From NCBI GenBank assembly GCA_944326465.1, contig CALVEB010000012.1, forward strand, positions 1-59,837: DNA of 59,837 nt, given 5' to 3'. The first letter of the stretch is position 1. Every line of letters starts with the position of its first letter. The notes beneath the pieces were generated by a model. The model saw nothing but the letters and a program-made list of their open reading frames with translations. It did not search any database and was not told where the DNA came from. The DNA comes from Candidatus Gastranaerophilales bacterium. GTDB taxonomy: Bacteria > Cyanobacteriota > Vampirovibrionia > Gastranaerophilales > Gastranaerophilaceae. Of this stretch, positions 1 through 59,837 are shown piece by piece. The position numbers and the translations under genes are program-made.

Positions 1-423
1 ACTGACTTTGCTGCAAATACAGCAATAAATACATGTGATGACACAACATACGACCCAAATGGTTCAGCAAATTCATATTGTGCAAATAATTATTGGGCAG
101 GAGCAATAAAAGCATGTAAAGATAAAGGCATGGAATTACCGACGAGAGCCCAATTGGCACAATTAGCAAGCAATCTATACGTAGATAGCAGCGGCAATGA
201 AGTAACAATAGGAGCGAACGAAAACAAAAGTAACCTAAAAGTAAAGGACGAATACAAAGATAACCCTCCACTTACTCTTGGCTACGACTACTGGTCCAGT
301 GAGGAGTACGGTGCGAATAACGCGTACCACCGGTACTTCCGCACTTCCTACACGTACGGCAATGACACTGGCTGGAACGCCAAGGACAGCAGCCGCCGCC
401 GCGCTATATGTGTGTCGAACTAA
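1..423 (+). CDS. Pilin-like DGR target protein, 3' part (variable C-terminal FISUMP/DUF1566-like domain)
   Basis: The reading frame is open from the first base of the window to the TAA at 421-423, so the N-terminus lies outside. The visible 140 residues match the C-terminal half of the complete paralogue at 57600-58712: a Cys-containing stretch (CANNYWAGA, ACKDKGMELPT), then AQLAQLASNLY, and finally YWSSEE...RAICVSN. This resembles FISUMP/DUF1566 (C-type-lectin-like) tails. The last 45 codons are a variable repeat of the DGR template at 10073-10208. By homology the missing part should carry a type IV prepilin leader, making this a surface or pilus protein. The tail is probably the ligand-binding face; the ligand is unknown. 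Confidence is high for the target role and lower for the pilin nature, because the N-terminus is not seen. Confidence 0.88.
   Translation, partial: TDFAANTAINTCDDTTYDPNGSANSYCANNYWAGAIKACKDKGMELPTRAQLAQLASNLYVDSSGNEVTIGANENKSNLKVKDEYKDNPPLTLGYDYWSSEEYGANNAYHRYFRTSYTYGNDTGWNAKDSSRRRAICVSN
276..411 (+). repeat. DGR variable repeat VR1
   Basis: This segment aligns without gaps to the template repeat at 10073-10208 (minus strand), 136 bp each. I count 21 differences, and every one falls on an adenine of the template: for example AAC becomes GAC, TAC, CAC, CGC, GGC, GCC or AGC. No non-A position differs. Most changes hit asparagine codons, so residues vary while the scaffold (YWSSEE, RAIC) stays fixed. 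Adenine-specific change is the hallmark of DGR mutagenic retrohoming. Confidence 0.96.
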
Positions 424-447
424 GAGGCCAGAAGCCTCTTAGTTCGA
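415..447 (+). repeat. Perfect stem-loop after VR1 (DGR target hairpin candidate)
   Basis: A 14-bp perfect inverted repeat (tcgaactaagaggc / gcctcttagttcga) has a 5-nt loop, and its left arm contains the stop codon. It begins 4 bp after the VR. Known DGR targets carry a hairpin or cruciform just after the VR that aids homing. The equivalent hairpin follows VR2 and, shorter, VR3. No T-run follows directly, so a terminator role is less likely. The template repeat lacks it. Confidence 0.8.
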
Positions 448-4119: not shown

Positions 4120-4890
4120 TCATTTTTTATGATATTCAAAAATTCCTGTGTTTTCAAACGGCATGACCCATTTAATATTTTTTTGCTGTGTTGTCAATTT
4201 GAAAAATTTATCTAAAAATTGAAATCCTTTTTTTCGAACACAATTATGATGTCCGTTTATTCCAATATAATGAACTCCGCTGTTTATCAGTTGTATAAGT
4301 TCATCTAAAATAGCATCTTCACTACGCATACGTGCAGTTTGCCAATCTGTTATATCAATATCCACATTATAATTATTATGTGCCGTATTAATTGTATTGC
4401 GTTTCGAAATACATCTAAAGCCTACAGCAAGCAAACTTTCTTCCAATTTAGCTGATATATTATTATAAGGCGGAGTAAATACTGGTAATAGTCTATTACC
4501 AAATATTTCACTAAATTGGTGTTGATAATCCGAAATTATCCTGGTTAATTCCACAACATTACAACCATCTGGGAATTCATTACTAACGCCATTGTCATTA
4601 CTGTTATTAATATGGTAAATACCATGTAAAGATATATAAACATTATGCTTTTTAAGTATTTTAATTAGGGGGTGCCCCCACTTAAAAAAGTTATCAGGTA
4701 TAACGGCAAAAATACCAGAAATATTATATTTTTCTAAAAGTTTTAACATTTTTATCAGCCGACTCTGATAACGTAAGCAAGTAAGATTGATTAATTTTGG
4801 TTTTCTGGCTTTTACATCGTCATCACGCCACCAAAAAAATACTTCATCCGTATTTTTTAAACAATTTTCAAATTCCAACCACTTGTTCAT
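4120..4890 (-). CDS. Polysaccharide deacetylase-like (NodB-fold) protein
   Basis: A protein of 256 residues with the layout of a carbohydrate esterase 4/NodB-like enzyme. It has WWRDDDVKA (~20-28, acidic dyad replacing the usual TFDDG), an HGIYH motif (~106, metal-binding histidines), FTPPYNN (~163, replacing RxPY) and GINGHHN near the C-terminus. No signal peptide is visible, so the substrate is probably cytosolic or membrane-proximal (a glycan precursor?). It starts 8 bp after the fabH stop, inside a conserved lipid operon, and reads more AT-rich than its neighbours, which suggests later insertion. The motifs are divergent, so the activity is uncertain. Confidence 0.65.
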   Translation of the reverse strand: MNKWLEFENCLKNTDEVFFWWRDDDVKARKPKLINLTCLRYQSRLIKMLKLLEKYNISGIFAVIPDNFFKWGHPLIKILKKHNVYISLHGIYHINNSNDNGVSNEFPDGCNVVELTRIISDYQHQFSEIFGNRLLPVFTPPYNNISAKLEESLLAVGFRCISKRNTINTAHNNYNVDIDITDWQTARMRSEDAILDELIQLINSGVHYIGINGHHNCVRKKGFQFLDKFFKLTTQQKNIKWVMPFENTGIFEYHKK

Positions 4891-4897
4891 AAATTTT

Positions 4898-5908
4898 CTA
4901 GCAAATACCTTCGCGTAATCTAACTATAGCCCCGCCCCAGGTCATGCCTGCCCCGAAACCACAAAGCACTGCTGTTGTACCAAGTTTAACATTGCCTTTT
5001 TCAACGCTTTCTGCCAATGCTATCGGAATAGATGCGGCTGATGTGTTGCCATAGTATTTGATATTTGTAACTACTTTCTCATCAGGATAGCCAAGTCTTT
5101 CCTGCACTGCCTGTATAATTCTGATATTTGCTTGATGAGGGATCAAATAATCAATATCTTCCGGTTTTAAACCTGCGTTTGAAATTAAATTTTCCACATA
5201 ATGCGGCAATATTTTAGCAACAAACGTATAAACGCCGCGGCCATTCATTCTGATACCTTTTGGTTTTTCCTGATACTGTTCAACCAGCGGACAGTTTTTA
5301 CCATCAAAGGCAAGTTCTATTAAATGCCCGTAATTTCCGTCTGCCTTAATATCAATCGCAATAACATCATCAATGCCATCCTCAGCCTGTGTAACAACCA
5401 TGGCGCCTGCACCATCGCCAAAAAGAATAGATGTACCTCTGTCTGTCCAGTCAACAAGTCTTGAGTTGTTATCTGTCGCAACTATCAGAATATTTTTGTA
5501 CATGCCCGTACCGATATATGCTTTTGCAATGCTTAAACCATAAATTAAACCGGAACAAGCTGCTGTTATATCAAATGCAGGGATCTGTTCTTTTATACCC
5601 AATCTCTGATGAATATGGCAGGCAATAGCCGGATATAAATCAGGCGGAGCAGATGATGCTGCAATGATTAAGTCAATATCATCCGGCTGCATTTTAGATT
5701 TTTCCAATGCTCTTTGAGCAGCTTCAAATCCAAGATCTATAGCATTTTGTTCACCAGATACAACACGTCTTTCTTTTATACCTGTACGGGTATAAATCCA
5801 TTCGTCTGATGTATCATACAATTTTGTCAAATCATCATTTGTAATAACTGTTTCGGGTAAACTGTATCCAACGCCCGCAATTCTTAACGGTATAATATTA
5901 TTTGTCAT
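4898..5908 (-). CDS. fabH: Beta-ketoacyl-ACP synthase III
   Basis: Condenses acetyl-CoA with malonyl-ACP to start fatty acid synthesis. It has 336 residues with the full triad: Cys in DITAACSGL (~121), His in LIPHQANIR (~260) and Asn in YYGNTSAASIP (~290). TRTGIKERR near the N-terminus is the CoA-binding signature. The start lies 5 bp after plsX, so the two are translationally close. A standard operon member. Confidence 0.96.
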   Translation of the reverse strand: MTNNIIPLRIAGVGYSLPETVITNDDLTKLYDTSDEWIYTRTGIKERRVVSGEQNAIDLGFEAAQRALEKSKMQPDDIDLIIAASSAPPDLYPAIACHIHQRLGIKEQIPAFDITAACSGLIYGLSIAKAYIGTGMYKNILIVATDNNSRLVDWTDRGTSILFGDGAGAMVVTQAEDGIDDVIAIDIKADGNYGHLIELAFDGKNCPLVEQYQEKPKGIRMNGRGVYTFVAKILPHYVENLISNAGLKPEDIDYLIPHQANIRIIQAVQERLGYPDEKVVTNIKYYGNTSAASIPIALAESVEKGNVKLGTTAVLCGFGAGMTWGGAIVRLREGIC

Positions 5909-5913
5909 CTAAA

Positions 5914-6969
5914 CTATTCCTCATAAAATTTAGCGATTTTTTCGTTAACGCCGGTTTCAACGGCATTTTTCGCAACTCTTACTGCATTTTTTATTGCATA
6001 AGCCTTACTTCTTCCGTGAGATATTACGGTTATACCTTTAACCCCGAGCAATAACGCACCGCCAAATTCTTCATAATTAATTTTTGTATAAATTCTTTTC
6101 ATAAACGGTTTTGCAAGAAGTCCGATTATTTTGCCCATCAAATCAGCTTTAAATTCTTGTTTCAACATTCTGAAAAGCATTGAAGAAGTACCTTCCGTAA
6201 CTTTCAATGCAACATTGCCGACAAAACCGTCACATACAACGACATCGCAAAGACTCAGGAATATTTCTTTACCTTCAATATTTCCTACAAAATTCAACTT
6301 GCCGCTGTGTTCTTCCAGAAGTTTATAAGTAGATTGCGCAAGTTCATTACCTTTACCGGCTTCTTCTCCGATATTCAGAACACCGATACGAGGATGCTCT
6401 ATACCGAGAACGTTTTTAGAAAAAGTTGCGCCCATAATAGCAAATTGATAAAGCATTTCCGGTGTACAATTACTGTTTGCACCGCCGTCAATTACAACAA
6501 TAGGTTTTTTGATAGTCGGGAGTGTAACGGCAATCGCCGGTCTGTCAATTCCAGGGATTCTGCCTAAACCGAATAAGCTTGAAGCCATAGCGGCACCTGT
6601 TGAGCCGGCTGCGACTACAGCGTCAGAACTGCCTGTTGCTACTGCATCTACAGCAAGAACTATTGAAGACTTTTTCTTTTTTCGAATAGCCTGTCCTGGA
6701 GCTTCGCCCATTTCTATAATTTCTGATGCGTGGGTAATTTTTATATCAAGTTTACTGGTATCAATTTTTAGCTTATATTGCTTACCGGCCTTTCCGCAAT
6801 CTGAATAAAAACCTTCATTAGATATTTTATCTAATTCCTGTTCAATCCTATCCTGCTTACCGACCAATTCGATAGCAACCCCGTATTCTTGTGCTGCCCA
6901 GACTGCACCTGCTACGATTTCGTGTGGGGCATGGTCTCCGCCCATTGCATCAATTGCTATTCTTGTCAT
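5914..6969 (-). CDS. plsX: Phosphate acyltransferase PlsX
   Basis: Makes acyl-phosphate from acyl-ACP for phospholipid synthesis at the membrane surface. It has 351 residues, an N-terminal RIAIDAMGGDHAP typical of PlsX, and VVAAGSTGAAMAS (~110). It lies between rpmF and fabH, the common bacterial order that links lipid supply to ribosome production. A possible attenuator hairpin stands between rpmF and this gene. Confidence 0.95.
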   Translation of the reverse strand: MTRIAIDAMGGDHAPHEIVAGAVWAAQEYGVAIELVGKQDRIEQELDKISNEGFYSDCGKAGKQYKLKIDTSKLDIKITHASEIIEMGEAPGQAIRKKKKSSIVLAVDAVATGSSDAVVAAGSTGAAMASSLFGLGRIPGIDRPAIAVTLPTIKKPIVVIDGGANSNCTPEMLYQFAIMGATFSKNVLGIEHPRIGVLNIGEEAGKGNELAQSTYKLLEEHSGKLNFVGNIEGKEIFLSLCDVVVCDGFVGNVALKVTEGTSSMLFRMLKQEFKADLMGKIIGLLAKPFMKRIYTKINYEEFGGALLLGVKGITVISHGRSKAYAIKNAVRVAKNAVETGVNEKIAKFYEE

Positions 6970-7011
6970 AGTTCCCTCTCAAAGTCTTATTATTGTTGTT
7001 TATTTACAAAA

Positions 7012-7060
7012 ACCGTCACCCGCACTTTTTACTGTAAAAAATCCAGAGTGACGGTTCTTT
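7012..7060 (-). terminator. Hairpin between rpmF and plsX
   Basis: The arms ccgtcac / gtgacgg enclose a loop of about 25 nt, and on the minus strand a T-rich run follows (gttttt). It could end or attenuate transcription after rpmF, so that plsX-fabH-fabD is partly independent. The long loop lowers confidence. Confidence 0.45.
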
Positions 7061-7066
7061 TAATTT

Positions 7067-7423
7067 TTACTCAGCTTCTTTTTCTGAAGTTTCTTCTTTT
7101 TCAACTTCAACTTCTTCAGCTTTAGTTTCTTCTGCTGCAGGAGTTTCAACAACGGTTTCTTTAACTTCTTCAGCTTTTTCTTCCGTTTTAGCTTCTGCTT
7201 TTTTAGTTGATTTTTTTGAAGGTTTTTCTTCTACAACTTCTTCAACTCTGTCTTTAATGCTTACCGGTTTTCCTTTGTAGTAGCCGCAAGCTGTGCAAAC
7301 AGTGTGTGTTAAAACTGTTGCGCCGCAATTTGAGCAAACTGTAGTTTCCGGTTTAGTTGCTTTCCAATTAGATCTTCTGTGTCCTTGTGCGGAATGTCCT
7401 GTTCTTTTCTTAGGTACTGCCAT
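7067..7423 (-). CDS. rpmF: Ribosomal protein bL32 with long acidic tail
   Basis: Large-subunit ribosomal protein. Residues 1-55 are the usual bL32 (MAVPKKRTGHSAQGHRRS, then the zinc ribbon CSNCG...CTACGYYKG). The protein is 118 residues, about twice the normal length. The extra C-terminal ~60 residues are almost wholly Lys/Glu/Ala/Val/Thr (VEEKPSKKSTKKAEAK, TEEKAEEV), a low-complexity, probably disordered tail. The frame is continuous, so the tail is genuine in this sequence. It sits between yceD and plsX as in many bacteria. Confidence 0.93.
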   Translation of the reverse strand: MAVPKKRTGHSAQGHRRSNWKATKPETTVCSNCGATVLTHTVCTACGYYKGKPVSIKDRVEEVVEEKPSKKSTKKAEAKTEEKAEEVKETVVETPAAEETKAEEVEVEKEETSEKEAE

Positions 7424-7450
7424 TTTCTTTTTTCCTTTTTATTTTAACTA

Positions 7451-7945
7451 CTATTTATTTTTCGGTTGTATCTGAATATTTTTAAAAACATCCAGACGCG
7501 GATCGGACATGCTGTCCTCAGTCGGGAAATGCTTCCCTTTACAATTTATACCACAAACTTTCTGATTTGGTAAATTTAATATTACAGATTGATACAATAA
7601 GTCATAAATATCAATTTCATCACTACCGTTCAAATCGGTTACGAACTGTCCTTCTTTAAGTTCATATTCCTGACCGTAATCCTCTAATAATGCCTGTTTT
7701 GCAAACATTTCATCTATATCAAAATCAAGTTTATAATCAAAATTTTCTAAACATCTGTCACATTGGAGCTTAACAATCCCCTTAACATTTCCTTTGACTT
7801 CAATAAACTCGCCGAGGGATTCAAGGGTTAAATGCGCCTTAATAGGTTCAACGCAATCTATACCGTCAATTTTTTCATCAAAATCTACGGTAATAGTCTT
7901 ATTTTTTGAATTTTCGATTGTGTCTATGGCTATGATGGCAGACAT
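7451..7945 (-). CDS. yceD: YceD-family (DUF177) protein
   Basis: A protein of 164 residues upstream of rpmF, the classic position of the YceD/DUF177 family, linked in plants and bacteria to 23S rRNA processing. It has a CxxC-like pair (LQCDRCLENF) and a second Cys pair near KVCGINCKGKHFP, which is typical. The start at 7945 (MSAIIAIDTIENS) is preferred because aaagaggt lies about 9 nt upstream. The longer frame from 8005 begins in repeat-like sequence. Confidence 0.85.
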   Translation of the reverse strand: MSAIIAIDTIENSKNKTITVDFDEKIDGIDCVEPIKAHLTLESLGEFIEVKGNVKGIVKLQCDRCLENFDYKLDFDIDEMFAKQALLEDYGQEYELKEGQFVTDLNGSDEIDIYDLLYQSVILNLPNQKVCGINCKGKHFPTEDSMSDPRLDVFKNIQIQPKNK

Positions 7946-7964
7946 CTTTAAATACCTCTTTAGA

Positions 7965-8205
7965 CAAGGCAATAAGGGATTAAGGGAATATGGGAATAAG
8001 TGCATTAATAATTATTTAAAAGTTTACTTAAATCAATAAAGCTATATCACTTATTCCCTTGTCTTGGATTTGCTCCACGCTCGCAGAGTTTCGCCTGTTG
8101 TGCTTATGCACAAGTCGGCTCAATCTGCTCGCTATCCGGATTTGCTCACTTCGTTCGCGCCATCCGTACGCAAATCCGCTATTGCCCTATTTCCTTATTC
8201 TCCTT
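7965..8205. repeat. GGGAATAAGG repeats and ~150-bp repeat module
   Basis: The gap between the 82-residue gene and yceD contains a GGGAATAAGG-like tract (7970-8000), then a module (~8049-8200) running from cttattccc-tgtcttggatttgctcc to caaatccgctattgccc. The module is an inverted relative of ~21754-21899, with a similar end order but a different middle. It holds small palindromic pieces (gcttatgcacaag, cacttcgttcgcg). No gene is supported. Confidence 0.65.
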
Positions 8206-8206
8206 T

Positions 8207-8455
8207 TTAAACATACTGTTCTTCTTGCAGAGCGACAGCGGCTATCTGGTTTGAGACAAAACAAACCTTTTTCAAAGGCCCTTGAGTTTCTTTTTCTACA
8301 AGAACAGCTGATGTGCTCTTCATCAATTGCGTAAGCTCCGCATAGAGATCCTGCGGGTTTTCAACATACAAAACCAAAGGGGCTGTTGACCCTTTTAAGA
8401 ATACTAATGTTGAAATTCTTTTTTTGATGTTTTGCGCATTGTATTGTTGTGACAT
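8207..8455 (-). CDS. Small conserved-looking protein of unknown function
   Basis: A protein of 82 residues (MSQQYNAQNIKKRIST...) that I do not recognise. It has alternating hydrophobic stretches (TLVFLKGSTAPLVLYV, KKVCFVSNQIAAVALQ) suggesting a small alpha/beta fold, and no signal peptide or membrane segment. The ATG is followed by normal coding sequence, and the gene lies codirectional between tpiA and yceD. A 13-bp hairpin stands between it and tpiA. Confidence 0.6.
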   Translation of the reverse strand: MSQQYNAQNIKKRISTLVFLKGSTAPLVLYVENPQDLYAELTQLMKSTSAVLVEKETQGPLKKVCFVSNQIAAVALQEEQYV

Positions 8456-8498
8456 AAATTTTTCCCTTTATATTTTCCGGTCAAAAAATAATTTTCAA

Positions 8499-8532
8499 GT
8501 GAACAGTGAACTGATTACCGTTCACTGTTCAC
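8499..8532. terminator. Strong 13-bp inverted repeat between tpiA and the 82-residue gene
   Basis: The arms gtgaacagtgaac / gttcactgttcac enclose a loop of about 8 nt. It lies 10 bp after the tpiA stop on the minus strand, followed within about 25 nt by an A/T-rich stretch. It may be a terminator or an RNA-stability element; the T-run is imperfect. Confidence 0.5.
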
Positions 8533-8541
8533 AGAATGCTC

Positions 8542-9336
8542 TTATACTGCAACTTTCATTGTGTTTGCAATAATTTCATTAAAGCTGTCAGCTTTGAGTG
8601 ATGCACCGCCTACTAATGCACCGTCAATGTCAGATTTTGACATTTGTTCAGCAATAGTGGAAGGTTTTACAGAACCGCCGTAAAGGATTCTGATAGCATC
8701 TGCAGCATCAGCACCTGCAACATCTTTAACAACACTTCTAATCATTGCAATTACTCTGTTTGCTTCATCGCTGTCACAAGTTTTACCTGTTCCGATAGCC
8801 CAGATTGGCTCATAAGCGATAACTGATTTAGCTACATCTTCAGAAGAAATACCGGATAAAGCCGCACGGATTTGAGATGCGATGTGTTCATCCGTAACAC
8901 CAGATTCTCTTTGCTCAAGAGTTTCGCCGCAGCAGATAATCGGAATTAAGCCGCCTGCTAAAATTGCTTTTGCTTTTTTGTTAATCATTTCATCAGTTTC
9001 TGAGAAGTATTGTCTTCTTTCTGAGTGGCCGATGATTACATAAGAACAGCCTGCATCTTTTACCATTTCAACAGAAACTTCACCGGTGTAAGCACCTGAA
9101 TTTTCCCAGTGGCAGTTTTGAGCCGCGATATTAATTCTGTTGCCGCCGCATCCACAGTCACATTTTTCAGCGTGCACTGCTGATAATGATGTGAAAGTCG
9201 GCGCAATGATTACTGTCGGTAAATCTTTTGCACTGTAATCTTTTACAAATGATTTAATACCTTCAAATAAAGCTTCAGCATCTGCTCTTAACAGATTCAT
9301 TTTCCAGTTTCCTGCGATAATTGGTTTTCTTGACAT
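8542..9336 (-). CDS. tpiA: Triose-phosphate isomerase
   Basis: Interconverts dihydroxyacetone phosphate and glyceraldehyde 3-phosphate. It has 264 residues with GNWKMN at the N-terminus, the catalytic His in IIGHSERRQYF (~102), the catalytic Glu in AYEPIWAIGTGKT (~178) and the phosphate loops YGGSVKP and GGASL. A short Cys-rich insert, EKCDCGCGGN (~57-66), precedes the AAQNCHW strand; I know of no such insert in standard enzymes. It is downstream of avd on the same strand but separated from it by a terminator. Confidence 0.96.
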   Translation of the reverse strand: MSRKPIIAGNWKMNLLRADAEALFEGIKSFVKDYSAKDLPTVIIAPTFTSLSAVHAEKCDCGCGGNRINIAAQNCHWENSGAYTGEVSVEMVKDAGCSYVIIGHSERRQYFSETDEMINKKAKAILAGGLIPIICCGETLEQRESGVTDEHIASQIRAALSGISSEDVAKSVIAYEPIWAIGTGKTCDSDEANRVIAMIRSVVKDVAGADAADAIRILYGGSVKPSTIAEQMSKSDIDGALVGGASLKADSFNEIIANTMKVAV

Positions 9337-9486: not shown

Positions 9487-9858
9487 TTAAACACTTCCTG
9501 CTGCATTCTCAGCAACAACCGACATTGCTGCCAGCCACCCCTGAGACTGCTTGGCAATGGAAGAAGTTTTTTCTATAAAAGCGCAGTAACGCGCCTGGGG
9601 CAAAATTCTTAAATCAAATGATATTCGTAAAAACAAATTAAGGAACTGAACATGCTCCTGTATGGACAAAATAAATTCTTTCTTGTCCTTTGCACTGTTT
9701 GCACGATATATATCAACGAGGAGATCAACAATATGAAGCTGTATCTTTTCACCCAGCGAAAACTTGAACTCTCTCGGAAAATCTTTTGTTGAATGCATAA
9801 GCTCCAGCAGTAAATCGTATGTTGTTTTATAAATAGGTAAGTGATGATATTGTGCCAT
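9487..9858 (-). CDS. avd: DGR accessory variability determinant (Avd)
   Basis: A protein of 123 residues that matches the Avd pattern: HLPIYKTTYDLLLEL at the start, FPREFKFSLGEKI (~29-41), then VDLLVDIYRANSA (~48) and an amphipathic C-terminal helix ending SQGWLAAM. In DGRs Avd is a pentameric four-helix-bundle protein that binds the reverse transcriptase and template RNA and is needed for mutagenic cDNA synthesis. It lies about 210 bp downstream of the template repeat on the same strand. The ATG has tgggga upstream. The related 23S-rRNA-IVS (S23) family shares the fold, but the adjacent template decides for Avd. No reverse transcriptase gene accompanies it. Confidence 0.9.
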   Translation of the reverse strand: MAQYHHLPIYKTTYDLLLELMHSTKDFPREFKFSLGEKIQLHIVDLLVDIYRANSAKDKKEFILSIQEHVQFLNLFLRISFDLRILPQARYCAFIEKTSSIAKQSQGWLAAMSVVAENAAGSV

Positions 9859-10018: not shown

Positions 10019-10048
10019 AAAAAACGGGATTGCATTAAACACAATCCC
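10019..10048 (-). terminator. Terminator of the template-repeat RNA
   Basis: The stem gggattg / caatccc with a 9-nt loop is followed on the minus strand by a T-run (gtttttt). It lies about 25 nt past the template repeat and before avd. This implies that the template RNA can be made as a short separate transcript. Confidence 0.7.
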
Positions 10049-10072: not shown

Positions 10073-10208
10073 ACATATAGCGCGGTTGTTGCTGTTGTTC
10101 TTGTTGTTCCAGTTATTGTCATTGCCGTTCGTGTTGGAAGTGTTGAAGTTCCGGTTGTACGCGTTATTCGCATTGTTCTCCTCACTGGACCAGTAGTTGT
10201 AGCCAAGA
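10073..10208 (-). repeat. DGR template repeat (TR)
   Basis: A 136-bp adenine-rich segment (minus strand) that reads as the C-terminal codons of the pilin-like targets but with 19 Asn codons (for example SSEENNANNAYN, WNNKNNSNN). It contains 52 A. VR1 and VR2 each differ from it at 21 sites, all A. Because most are AAY codons, random change at A gives NNY codons and never a stop; the one AAG (Lys) codon is the exception. No start codon, leader or complete domain surrounds it, so it is a template and not a gene. It ends in cgcgctatatgt, shared with the VRs, and then diverges (initiation-of-homing boundary). Confidence 0.96.
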
Positions 10209-10211
10209 ACG

Positions 10212-10382
10212 ACGGATTCTAAATCGATAAAAAAGACTCTTTCCCAATTACCGACCTCCGTTTCCGGAGCTTTGCTTGATGTCAGGCACCAAGCACCGCC
10301 GACGAGATAAATAAAGAGTACACCCCGCTATACCGTAGCATAGACAGGCTCTGACTCGTACTGTCTTTATGACAGCTTTTTT
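10212..10382 (-). ncRNA. Structured leader of the template RNA or separate small RNA, unidentified
   Basis: No protein frame is supported. On the minus strand the stretch folds well: ctgtc-ataaa-gacag, ctccg-gaaa-cggag (GAAA tetraloop) and gcttg...caagc are clear stems, and gcggggtgtactc sits between. It lies between a plausible minus-strand promoter and the TR, so it may be the 5' part of the template RNA. On the plus strand, ctgtc-tttat-gacag followed by six T (10361-10382) would be a terminator, so a plus-strand small RNA is an alternative. I matched it to no known RNA family. Confidence 0.45.
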
Positions 10383-21753: not shown

Positions 21754-22338
21754 AAGGGAATAAGGGATTAGCGGATTTGCGGACGGACGGAGCGAAGCGA
21801 GTCCGGATAGCGAACGGAACGAGCCGACTGGAGCAACGCTCCTCAGGCGAGTCTCCGTGAGCGTGGAGCAAATCCAAGACAGGGAAATAAGGGAATAAGT
21901 TCTTTACAAAAAATAAGGCAACGTGGAAAATTTCACAAGCATGTCATTGCAAGCGGATTTGCGTACGGGCGGACGTAGTCCGGCAGGCTAGCCTGCATCA
22001 ACATACTGGACACCCGTTAAAGGCAGACACAGTCTGCTCTTATACACTAGCCCACGCAAAAGTTACGGGCATCCAGTATGTAAAAGTAGACTGTGTCCAC
22101 CCTCTCCAAGGGGGAGGAAAAGAATTTGTTGCCGAACGCAGTGAGGCTAGAAATTCTAGGAGGGGGTCAATTGCGTGGATTCAACGAACCAACCCCCACC
22201 CGAAACACTAAAACTCACTTACGTTCGTTAAGTGTTTCTGCCCTCCCCCTCGGAGATGGCAAAGTGGCGACTCACCAATGCCTTTCCGTCATACCGCAGC
22301 GGTTTCGCTGCGTCTTGCGTGTGCCGTTGCCTTGCGGT
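21754..22338. repeat. Mosaic intergenic repeat region B
   Basis: Two modules lie in tandem. The first, ~21754-21899, is bounded by GGGAATAAGG-type ends and contains cggatttgcgg...gtggagcaaatccaagac; its relative is at ~8049-8200. The second, ~21979-22338, is a near-identical inverted copy of ~745-1103. Palindromic micro-units recur (gcaggctagcctgc, cagacacagtctg). The open frame in the second module is shared with region A only because the DNA is repeated; I do not call it a gene. Confidence 0.75.
22002..22080. repeat. 79-bp palindromic element, copy 2
   Basis: The ends catactggacacccg and cgggcatccagtatg are inverted repeats. It has the same length as the copy at 1002-1080 but differs in its internal hairpin (cagacacagtctg here, gcacactttgtgtgc there). 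Confidence 0.6.
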
Positions 22339-22563
22339 ATCTCAAAATTTGCCAAAAACTTTGGCATCAGAATAAAATATTTTAGATTATTAAGAGGGAT
22401 GACTCAGGAAACTCTGTCTGACAAAATCGCAATGAGTACGCGATATGTAAGTGATATTGAAAACGGTAAAGTAAATGTCACTTTAAAAACTATACACAAA
22501 ATTGCCGAAAGTCTCGCTATAGAAGAATGGGAACTGTTAAAATTCCATGACTGTAAGCGCTAG
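22321..22563 (+). CDS. Small XRE-family helix-turn-helix regulator, start captured from a repeat
   Basis: The coding core (FGIRIKYFRLLRGMTQETLSD, then STRYVSDIENGKVNVTLKTI) is a complete XRE/Cro DNA-binding domain of about 65 residues. The frame is open far upstream through the repeat module, so the true start is unclear. I give the GTG at 22321, inside the repeat boundary; TTG at 22330 or a start lost to repeat insertion are alternatives. No RBS is evident. It may therefore be poorly expressed or broken at its 5' end. The target is unknown. A histidine kinase follows 64 bp later. Confidence 0.6.
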   Translation: MPLPCGISKFAKNFGIRIKYFRLLRGMTQETLSDKIAMSTRYVSDIENGKVNVTLKTIHKIAESLAIEEWELLKFHDCKR

Positions 22564-57043: not shown

Positions 57044-57440
57044 GTACGAAGGCGGACACAGTCCGGCAGGCTAGCCTGGCAGACACAGTCTGGTGGACAC
57101 AGTCCACTCTTATACACAGGAGACCCGCTAAGTCCTATCAGTAGCTGCTATATTTACCTCTCCAAGGGGGAGGAAAAGAATTTGTTAGCGAATGAAATGA
57201 GCTTACAAATTCTAGGTGGGGGTCAAATGTGCGCGTCCCACCAATCGCGTTACACTCCCTCACACCTTGGGGAGAGGGTAGAATTTCTTAGTGAGCTTTG
57301 CGAGCTTAGAAATTCGGGTGAGGGGTCCTTGGAATTCTTCAAAGTCCCGCTTTGACCCCTCATCCGGCCTCCGGCCACCTTCCCCCCAAGGGGGGAAGGT
57401 ATATAGCGGGTTCCGTTACAACTTAGCGGGTGTCCAGATA
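57044..57440. repeat. Mosaic intergenic repeat region C
   Basis: A collection of the same micro-units as regions A and B: ggcaggctagcctgg, ggacacagtcc, cctctccaagggggagg, gaggggtc and a G/C-rich palindrome (ccttccccccaaggg). It resembles a derived copy of the family. No gene is supported. Confidence 0.6.
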
Positions 57441-57574: not shown

Positions 57575-57609
57575 TTCGAACTAAGAGGCTTTGGGCCTCT
57601 TAGTTCGAA
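57575..57609 (-). repeat. Perfect stem-loop after VR2
   Basis: The 15-bp arms ttcgaactaagaggc / gcctcttagttcgaa with a 5-nt loop include the stop codon, equivalent to the VR1 hairpin with a different loop. It is just past the variable repeat on the coding strand, the expected place for a DGR homing hairpin. Confidence 0.8.
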
Positions 57610-58712
57610 ACACATATAGCGCGGAGGCCGCTGGTGTTCTTGTAGTACCAGCGATTGTCATTGCCGTCCGTGCGGGAAGCGCCGAAGCCCCGGTAGTACG
57701 CGGTATTCGCATTGTCCTCCTCACTGGACCAGTAGCTGTAGCCAAGAGTAAGTGGAGGATTATCTTTGTATTCGTCCTTTACTTTGAGTCCTGATTTATC
57801 TTCGTTGTATGCTATCTCTACTTCATTGCCGCTGCTATCTACGTAAAGATTGCTTGCTAGTTGTGCTAGTTGGGCTCTCGTAGGAAGTTCCATGCCTTTC
57901 TCTTGACAGCTTAATTTAGCACCTGCCCAATAGTTTGTAGAGCAATTACTTCCATGGTTTTGTTCCATATCTTCATATTCGCTGCCAGCGCAGGTATCTA
58001 TTGCGCGGTTTGCTTGGAATTCCGTTGACCAGCACATGTCACCTATCGGGTTATCGCAAGTGGAAAAGGCAACGCCTGAAGATAATTCAATATCTTTACC
58101 AACTCTATTCGGGCCTTTCTTTCCGTTTACATCTACCATGTATGCCATGCAAGATACTTGTGAACCTGTATCCTCTATTGGATCAGCATAAGGGCATTCC
58201 GGCTGGTATGCCATAATTACTGTTGTACCGTCTGCAACCACAAAGCTCATGGTATTTGTGTTAGTTTGCCATTCCTTTAATCCCATGCTTGATGCGGAAG
58301 TTAGAGTTTCTGTTTCTATGTCAAGAGGCGCATCGTCTTTACCTGTTGTTACGATTTTAGGTGAATAGCATTTGTTGATGTCATCCTTGTCGCATGTCTT
58401 AATAACTTTCATGTAGTTTTTGAAAGTATTCATGAAATCCTCAGTAGAATTGTGACCGGTCATGACACCGTCTACGTTCATGCGTCGGACGGTTTCCGTG
58501 AGTTTCTTTTCCCAGAGGTCTTTCGCAGTTTTCCATGCTGTCTCATTGTGGTTCTGGATAAGACCCGGTAATGTAAGTGCGGCAACGATGCCGATAACCG
58601 CAAGGGTGATGAGGACTTCGGCGAGAGTGAATGCTGCTTTAGCGGTCTCCAGAGTGTTGGTGCAGACCAGCCTGTCTTCAGCGAAAGTAAAAGCTAATTT
58701 GTAATTTGTCAT
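57600..58712 (-). CDS. Type IV pilin-like DGR target protein (complete)
   Basis: A protein of 370 residues. The start at 58712 (MTNYKLAFTF) is fixed by ggaggt 7 nt upstream; the longer frame starts on the RBS itself. Residues 28-50 (FTLAEVLITLAVIGIVAAL) form a class III prepilin N-terminal helix with Glu32 at position +5, so peptidase should cut at A27/F28. A helical middle region follows, then a Cys-rich FISUMP/DUF1566-like C-terminal domain ending in VR2. The first 27 residues contain a second, imperfect AFTFAE motif, as if a 60-nt piece had been inserted. The protein probably sits on a pilus or the cell surface. Divergent from the XRE gene. Confidence 0.9.
   Translation of the reverse strand: MTNYKLAFTFAEDRLVCTNTLETAKAAFTLAEVLITLAVIGIVAALTLPGLIQNHNETAWKTAKDLWEKKLTETVRRMNVDGVMTGHNSTEDFMNTFKNYMKVIKTCDKDDINKCYSPKIVTTGKDDAPLDIETETLTSASSMGLKEWQTNTNTMSFVVADGTTVIMAYQPECPYADPIEDTGSQVSCMAYMVDVNGKKGPNRVGKDIELSSGVAFSTCDNPIGDMCWSTEFQANRAIDTCAGSEYEDMEQNHGSNCSTNYWAGAKLSCQEKGMELPTRAQLAQLASNLYVDSSGNEVEIAYNEDKSGLKVKDEYKDNPPLTLGYSYWSSEEDNANTAYYRGFGASRTDGNDNRWYYKNTSGLRAICVSN
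57612..57747 (-). repeat. DGR variable repeat VR2
   Basis: A gap-free alignment to the template repeat (10073-10208) over 136 bp. I count 21 differences, all at template adenines (for example AAC to GAC, TAC, CGC, GGC, CTC and AGC; ACT to GCT). It differs from VR1 at many of the same codons, so the two targets carry separate rewrites. Confidence 0.96.
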
Positions 58713-58734
58713 AATCCTTACCTCCAATAATACT

Positions 58735-59018: not shown

Positions 59019-59094
59019 TGAGCAAAGAGCAAAAGCGGCGCCCTTTAGCGTTAGTGCCGCAATACAGGCCAGCCTACTTAAATGTTTCGTTACG

Positions 59095-59250
59095 TCTTGC
59101 GGGTGTCGTTGCCTTGCGGGTGGACACAGTCCACTCTTACATACTGGATGCCCGTTAACTTTAGCGGGTGTACAGTGTATAAGAGCAGACTTCGTCTGCC
59201 CCGCAAGGTAACAATGCCCGCTTGACGCAAACATTCCCGTTGCGGGATGA
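59095..59250. repeat. Mosaic intergenic repeat region D
   Basis: Shares tgccttgcgg, ggtggacacagtccac, gcagacttcgtctgc and gcaaggtaacaatgcc with region A, including the stretch near 600-690 in the same order. It contains the short 40-bp element copy at 59140-59180. No gene is supported. Confidence 0.65.
59140..59180. repeat. Short derivative of the 79-bp palindromic element
   Basis: catactggatgcccg followed by gcgggtgtacagtgta: the same ends as at 1002 and 22002, with the interior deleted to about 40 bp. Confidence 0.55.
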
Positions 59251-59257
59251 CGGATAA

Positions 59258-59296: not shown

Positions 59297-59325
59297 AAAA
59301 TTCTCTTAATCACTTAGTCACGTCC

Positions 59326-59348
59326 AACTAAGGGCTATGCCCTTAGTT
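59326..59348 (-). repeat. Stem-loop after VR3
   Basis: A 10-bp perfect stem (aactaagggc / gcccttagtt) with a 3-nt loop at the stop codon. It is shorter than the VR1 and VR2 hairpins and lies at the same place. Confidence 0.7.
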
Positions 59349-59837
59349 CGAAACACATATAGCGCGGAGGTTGCTGAGGTTCTTGTTGGTTTTGTACCAG
59401 TAACTGACCGTAGTGGACAAGAGCCGCCTGTACGCGCGATTTGCATCGACCTCCTCACTGGACCAGTAGGGGTAAGGAAGAGTAAGGGGAGGGTTAGCTT
59501 TGTATTCGTCCTTTACTTTTAGGCCTGAGTCTATTGTTTCGTTCGCACCTATGGTTATCTCTGTGCCGTCACTCTTTACATATAATTCACTCGCTAGTTG
59601 CGCCAGTTGGGCTCCTGTTGGTAATTCCATACCTTTATCCTTACACGCTTTTATCGCTCCTGCCCAGTAATTGGTTGAACAAAATTGATTATCTGTACCA
59701 TGTTTATCATATGTTGTATCACTACAGGTATCTATTGCAGTATTAGCAACAAAGTCAGTACTCCAGCACATGTCACCTATCGGGTTATCGCAAGTGGAAA
59801 AGGCTACACCTGAAGATAATTCAATATCTTTGCCAAC
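59343..59837 (-). CDS. Pilin-like DGR target protein, third copy (5' truncated by window)
   Basis: The frame is open to the window edge, where it begins VGKDIELSSGVAF on the minus strand, matching residues of the complete copy. The C-terminal FISUMP/DUF1566-like region includes CWSTDFVANTAIDTC, GMELPTGAQLAQLASELY and YWSSEEVDANRAY...RAICVSN. The tail carries VR3. Similar length and order to the other copies show a recently expanded target family. The prepilin leader lies outside. Confidence 0.88.
   Translation of the reverse strand, partial: VGKDIELSSGVAFSTCDNPIGDMCWSTDFVANTAIDTCSDTTYDKHGTDNQFCSTNYWAGAIKACKDKGMELPTGAQLAQLASELYVKSDGTEITIGANETIDSGLKVKDEYKANPPLTLPYPYWSSEEVDANRAYRRLLSTTVSYWYKTNKNLSNLRAICVSN
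59355..59480 (-). repeat. DGR variable repeat VR3 (not from the visible template)
   Basis: The first ~20 bp (cgcggaggttgctg...) and the codons YWSSEE...RAIC align with VR1 and VR2. The middle differs in length and at non-adenine bases, so the visible template cannot have produced it. The segment nearest the stop (aag-aac-ctc-agc-aac-ctc) differs from the template only at A positions, as expected if a second template with the same frame exists. Confidence 0.75.

Follow-up and report, generated by a model that had tools for sequence, protein, structure and literature searches.

The window, a contig of 59,837 nt from the genome of a Candidatus Gastranaerophilales bacterium, carries a non-coding repeat (TR1), an adjoining avd gene followed by tpiA, and three copies (VRs) of the repeat (Table 1). 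When the reverse complement of TR1 is aligned with VR-a (plus strand) and VR-b (minus strand), both match over 136 bp without gaps, as a sequence-only reading of this DNA had claimed, and its count of the differences proved exact: each VR carries 21 substitutions, and tabulation by template base assigns every one of the 42 to a template A, with the 84 non-A positions unchanged. The spectrum (23 A>G, 11 A>C and 8 A>T) includes 19 changes to a pyrimidine besides the 23 to G, again in agreement with that reading. The 19 Asn codons proposed to protect the targets against stops are indeed present in the template as AAY codons, which can turn only into NNY and thus never into a stop codon. VR-c, which that reading had overlooked along with the avd gene, is more diverged, with 20 changes at A and 13 at other bases as compared to TR1, and is 9 nt shorter.

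Table 1 Features of the window related to the template repeat and its targets
Feature	Position	Strand	Evidence
TR1, template repeat, non-coding, 19 AAY codons	10073..10208	-	alignment
Structured RNA leader upstream of TR1	10209..10375	-	15/22 predicted pairs with compensatory changes
Intrinsic-terminator-like hairpin and T-run, 24 nt after TR1	10026..10048	-	sequence
avd gene (Avd1), DGR accessory protein	9487..9858	-	PF22296 bAvd, NCBIfam DivGenRetAVD
VR-a, 21 changes, all at template A	276..411	+	alignment
Pilin-like target gene with VR-a, 3' part; 5' end lost at contig end	1..423	+	
Hairpin, 14-bp stem, just downstream of VR-a	415..447	+	
VR-b, 21 changes, all at template A	57612..57747	-	alignment
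Pilin-like target gene with VR-b; prepilin N-methylation motif, C-type-lectin-like tip	57600..58727	-	
Hairpin, 15-bp stem, just downstream of VR-b	57575..57609	-	
VR-c, diverged	59355..59481	-	alignment
Pilin-like target gene with VR-c, 3' part; runs off contig end	59343..59837	-	
Hairpin downstream of VR-c, 12/13 pairs	59323..59351	-	

TR1 is the template repeat of a diversity-generating retroelement (DGR). The proposal of a DGR template with two remote VRs is supported by the A-specific change, the Asn-rich non-coding template and the Avd gene, and further by a DGR-type reverse transcriptase (RT) in the genome, C-type-lectin-like tips of the target proteins and hairpins following the VRs. 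The targets at 10 kb and 48 kb, whose distance had been singled out as unusual, are real remote targets, although remoteness itself is already known elsewhere. More unusual are the position of the RT away from the template locus and the size of the target family, about 35 genes.

A leader of about 150 nt lies upstream of the TRs across the clade, and its predicted pairing is accompanied by compensatory changes (Table 1). In several relatives it overlaps the 3' end of avd; at TR1 it is conserved though no avd precedes it, and it therefore probably functions as an RNA. A search of Rfam gave no match for the leader. The terminator-like hairpin is the probable 3' end of the template RNA.

The Avd1 protein matches PF22296 at 8.8e-13, above the cut-off, and the NCBIfam model at 3.1e-15, below its cut-off. 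An RT was looked for beside TR1 and none was found. The same holds for a second template, TR2 (C19:12686-12816), where the order on the contig is target, Avd2, TR2. The only DGR-type RT found in the genome (G000) stands alone on another contig (C9:49540-50670), with neither an Avd nor a TR detected near it, whereas an RT next to the template is usual, if not obligatory, in DGRs. It has the motifs IGNLTSQ and YVDD and is 32% identical to Brt of BPP-1. The RT lies between the maf gene and a gene for a 372-aa protein. These two genes are immediate neighbours in two genomes of the same genus (G002 and G003), so that the RT of G000 represents a 1.2-kb insertion. We infer that it serves TR1, and perhaps TR2, since it is the only DGR RT found and its grouping with the lineage of loci L110 and L111 is consistent with this pairing, if weakly supported. 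Another RT, on C49 (L061, 482 aa), was rejected as a DGR enzyme because it has no IGNLTSQ motif and lies beside a transposase-like gene. A weakly Avd-like protein on C7, encoded beside ribosome-maturation and NusA-like genes, was also discarded, as it probably belongs to the 23S rRNA intervening-sequence type.

The number of targets was obtained by searching G000 (2.07 Mb, 52 contigs, 99.7% complete, 0.5% contaminated) with TR1. Besides TR1 itself, at least 32 VRs of this type occur, on 24 contigs, and together with those of TR2 there are at least 35 targets on 27 contigs. They are distinct loci, because they lie in separate places and each has its own downstream sequence. As many as 16 contig ends lie less than 1 kb from a VR; the assembly breaks at VRs, and the true number is therefore probably higher. 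Ten VRs, spread over eight contigs, are free of any non-A change: they differ from TR1 at 205 of 518 A sites and at 0 of 836 other sites, a contrast for which chance is excluded (Fisher p ~1e-99). For all 32 VRs pooled the figures are 683 of 1615 A sites and 153 of 2614 other sites. The remaining 22 VRs have 1 to 16 non-A differences, which implies that some members of the family are not fresh copies of TR1. Of the 205 changes in the ten clean VRs, 204 fall in AAY codons, and adenines in TAC, GAG, AAG, AGC and ACG codons are untouched; we attribute this confinement to selection that preserves a stable framework once mutagenesis has taken place.

Among the genes with clean VRs, the 700 bp preceding the VR show 17.6% divergence, and the segment nearest to it about 20%. 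Despite this divergence of the host genes, the non-A positions of the clean VRs are identical, so the VRs were overwritten from TR1 after the paralogs had diverged. By this comparison, the clean VRs are recent copies of TR1 at distant loci. They match one TR at all non-A sites and lie far from both RT and TR, the pattern by which remote targets diversified in trans are recognized. The same observations bear on the proposal that the variation arises mainly by recombination among pilin paralogs, in the manner of pilE/pilS gene conversion and without a retroelement. The targets do form a large dispersed pilin-like family in which duplication occurs, as neighbouring copies with identical VRs on C30 indicate. 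Recombination, however, predicts neither base specificity nor identical non-A sites in genes that differ by 18% up to the edge of the VR, and only adenines have changed, relative to a non-coding template that lies next to an Avd gene; we regard this explanation as extremely improbable. The two pilin targets on C30 (L049:1767-2780 and 4570-5583), with identical VRs 2.8 kb apart, are a recent tandem duplication. Near targets in the window, families of dispersed direct and inverted repeats were also seen (704-1111, 21971-22343, 57091-57244 and 59084-59252), including one 367-nt pair that is 93% complementary. They may be MITE- or REP-like elements by which the targets have been dispersed.

Three VRs belong to TR2. 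The one on C19 has 19 changes, all at A, the one on C22 has 18 at A and one other, and the one on C11 is diverged. Six diverged VRs (on C32, C13, C24, C14 and C9, and VR-c at C12:59355) share a VR that is three codons shorter. In most variable codons of this group the first two bases vary but the third is constant, either C or T, as expected if the codons derive from AAY in a template. The sequences of this short subfamily thus point to a third template, which was not found in the G000 assembly; it is either lost or located in an assembly gap.

A hairpin with a stem of 10–15 bp follows 30 of the 32 VRs. The distance is 2–5 nt in 29 cases; for the most diverged target it is 30 nt, counted from the end of the alignment. 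Changes in the stems are mostly compensated (TCGAAC/GTTCGA, TCCAAC/GTTGGA, TCTAAC/GTTAGA), with covarying cores CGAA/TTCG, CCAA/TTGG and CTAA/TTAG, and the stop codon of the target falls inside the hairpin. No similar hairpin occurs right after TR1, where the only stem is the terminator-like one with its T-run. The TR2 targets on C19 and C22 have a different hairpin, GGGGCGATTTT-TTCAG-AAAATCGCCCC. In BPP-1, homing requires such a hairpin, and its structure matters rather than the sequence of the stem (PMC3240598).

All VRs are located at the 3' ends of type-IV-pilin-like genes. Full-length targets begin with a prepilin-type motif, [AG]FTLAE, which is part of AFTLAEVLITLAVIGIVAALTLPGLIQN in most of them, and end in the VR. 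A target of the window passes NCBIfam TIGR02532 (22.0 bits against a cut-off of 16.3) and stays just under the cut-off of Pfam N_methyl. The C-terminal 119 residues of a target were modelled with a pLDDT of 89 and a pTM of 0.81. In a Foldseek search, the best PDB match of this tip was the C-terminal domain of Bdellovibrio Bd2740 (probability 0.99, E 0.02), followed by that of Legionella Lcl (probability 0.92) and further C-type lectins, the matches spanning probabilities of 0.92–0.99 and E values of 0.02–0.08. Bd2740 has a C-type lectin fold, and its trimer resembles the DGR target Mtd (PMC10769870). Proteins of some relatives match Pfam Lcl_C directly. The tip is thus predicted from the model to adopt a C-type lectin fold, and the target products would serve as binding tips exposed at the cell surface by a pilus or pseudopilus.

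The named relatives are MAGs assigned to Candidatus Gastranaerophilales and other Melainabacteria. One genome of the same genus, G003, has a contiguous Avd-TR-RT arrangement, and L110 and L111 carry RT-HTH-target-Avd-TR-tpiA in one stretch. Since relatives hold the parts in one cassette, that of G000 must have been dismantled and has to work in trans. It is very unlikely that the RT is in reality in cis and that the split results from an assembly or binning error. Assemblies of this clade do break at VR and TR repeats. Two relatives have RT and TR-Avd contigs whose ends correspond in position and that probably join, with overlapping target sequence shared by L114 and L193. In G000, however, TR1 and Avd1 lie between thiDE and tpiA, 10 kb into their contig; the RT, flanked by maf and the 372-aa gene, lies 50 kb into a contig of 83 kb; and Avd2-TR2 lies 12 kb into one of 40 kb. 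The neighbouring genes are in every case ordinary chromosomal ones, and for tpiA and maf counterparts are seen in the same genus. A separation of RT from TR-Avd in L109, L112, L114 and L116 was considered and dropped, the L114 and L193 contigs appearing to join inside a target gene.

The origin of the separated parts in G000 can be traced to some extent. Avd1 is 67–68% identical to proteins of L110, L111 and L194, and Avd2 is 63% identical to the G003 protein. The RT groups loosely, with weak support, with L109, L110 and L111 and not with G003. A target with a VR-like end lies next to tpiA in G001; as tpiA also borders TR1-Avd1 and the L110 and L111 cassettes, its side is probably an old DGR site. 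The simplest history is the break-up of an L110-like cassette, with relocation of its RT, and the loss of the RT from a G003-like cassette. The possibility that the RT has stayed at an ancestral site beside ribBA/ribE, as in L110 and L111, was abandoned because junctions in sister genomes show the insertion to be on the other side, and the shared ribBA/ribE neighbourhood is only suggestive. In other genomes, a phage-like region in G012 (L083, ~6072-9222) has a separate reverse transcriptase beside a protein with a VR-like tail, and the MAG RGIG4789 harbours three different DGR-type RTs (L125, L128, L132). Close relatives of the RT clade occur in Acidobacteriota and alphaproteobacterial MAGs (L134, L136, L141), with Avd alongside in L134 and L136, and horizontal spread is possible.

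Taken together, we consider it highly probable that G000 contains a cellular DGR whose dispersed parts act in trans. The sequence basis consists of the parts themselves, A-specificity, recent overwriting of VRs, compensated hairpins and the lack of an RT at the template loci. TR1 gave no match in phage records, nor did an 18-base TR1 pattern in IMG/VR contigs. A stand-alone RNA composed of the structured leader, TR1 and the terminator would be transcribed at 10375-10026 (minus strand). Avd1 and the solitary RT could then form a complex that copies TR1 with errors at adenines, and the cDNA would replace the 3' end of any pilin-like gene that has matching anchors and a hairpin right after the VR. 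The target pool would comprise at least 32 genes via TR1, plus three via the second, RT-less Avd-TR cassette on C19.

Such a system may also have ceased to function. After the cassette fell apart, the RT would no longer have access to the templates, and the VRs would be frozen records of past activity. The sister genome G002 (same genus, 97% complete; L091-L108) has at least 21 VR-like pilin target ends, and no DGR RT or Avd was found in it, so that its set is probably a relic repertoire. Some Treponema denticola strains keep targets without an RT (PMC4891356), and 22 VRs of G000 display some non-A drift. On the other hand, the RT, both Avds and both templates are intact in G000, the leader RNA is still conserved where no avd overlaps, and ten TR1 VRs and the TR2 VR on C19 are without non-A change against 18% divergence of the flanks. 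We therefore judge a relic in G000 unlikely, and prefer a dispersed DGR that acts in trans. More tentatively, and with rather less than even confidence, we suggest that the one solitary RT serves both TR1-Avd1 and Avd2-TR2, which are unlinked and of different lineages, that it is still rewriting about 35 tips, and that older VRs bear the imprint of a third template, lost or unassembled. If this is true, each cell would have a private set of adhesins.

The dispersed organization has several implications. A DGR cassette is not a necessary unit, as RT, template with Avd, and targets can occupy separate chromosomal sites. Trans-acting mutagenic homing becomes testable with natural parts, as separable RT, RNA and target modules, and thirty-odd targets with covarying hairpins provide a natural alignment of what a VR target requires. 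A non-photosynthetic gut relative of the cyanobacteria would also possess a hypervariable set of surface proteins comparable in scale to antigenic-variation gene families.

It is useful to compare this system with known DGRs. The searched literature, mostly without subscription journals, contained no DGR report in Gastranaerophilales or Melainabacteria, nor a full separation of DGR parts or a target set of such scale. A global metagenome survey of DGRs states that remote targets would escape detection; another survey mentions dozens of VRs in some cases, its main example having mostly non-A changes. The DGR of BPP-1 (mtd-avd-TR-brt) shares with G000 the A-specific TR-to-VR change, Avd, a related RT, the VR at the 3' end of the target, a hairpin just after it and a C-type-lectin-like tip. 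It has, however, one target in a compact cassette, whereas the parts in G000 are on separate contigs with about 35 targets, and its hairpin stems are 7–10 bp, shorter than in G000, where the loops depart from GRNA. In T. denticola, with seven remote target genes and 2–7 targets per strain (PMC4891356), one template likewise diversifies paralogous surface-protein genes chromosome-wide, and here too targets may persist without an RT; RT, TR and one target nevertheless form a core cassette, and the targets are FGE-type lipoproteins instead of pilin-like proteins. Trichodesmium erythraeum, with 18 TR/VR loci (PMC8867640, PMC7517822), and other cyanobacteria also have remote VRs dispersed through the genome, but their RTs stay with proximal targets, the targets are mostly of a cytosolic signalling type, and the host lineage is another one. 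In Thiohalocapsa PB-PSB1 (nine loci, 15 targets, four classes; PMC10907252), some loci lack an RT or TR and were proposed to be diversified in trans, but each class has one complete cassette, which G000 lacks altogether. The cis cassettes of Gastranaerophilales (G003/L135, L110, L111) have the same RT clade, Avd and leader RNA, with pilin-like targets in L110 and L111, and differ in that RT, Avd and TR are contiguous. The set of at least 35 targets is the largest DGR target set found in the literature searched. Thus, the mechanism and the use of remote targets are known, and what is new is the architecture, the scale and the host.
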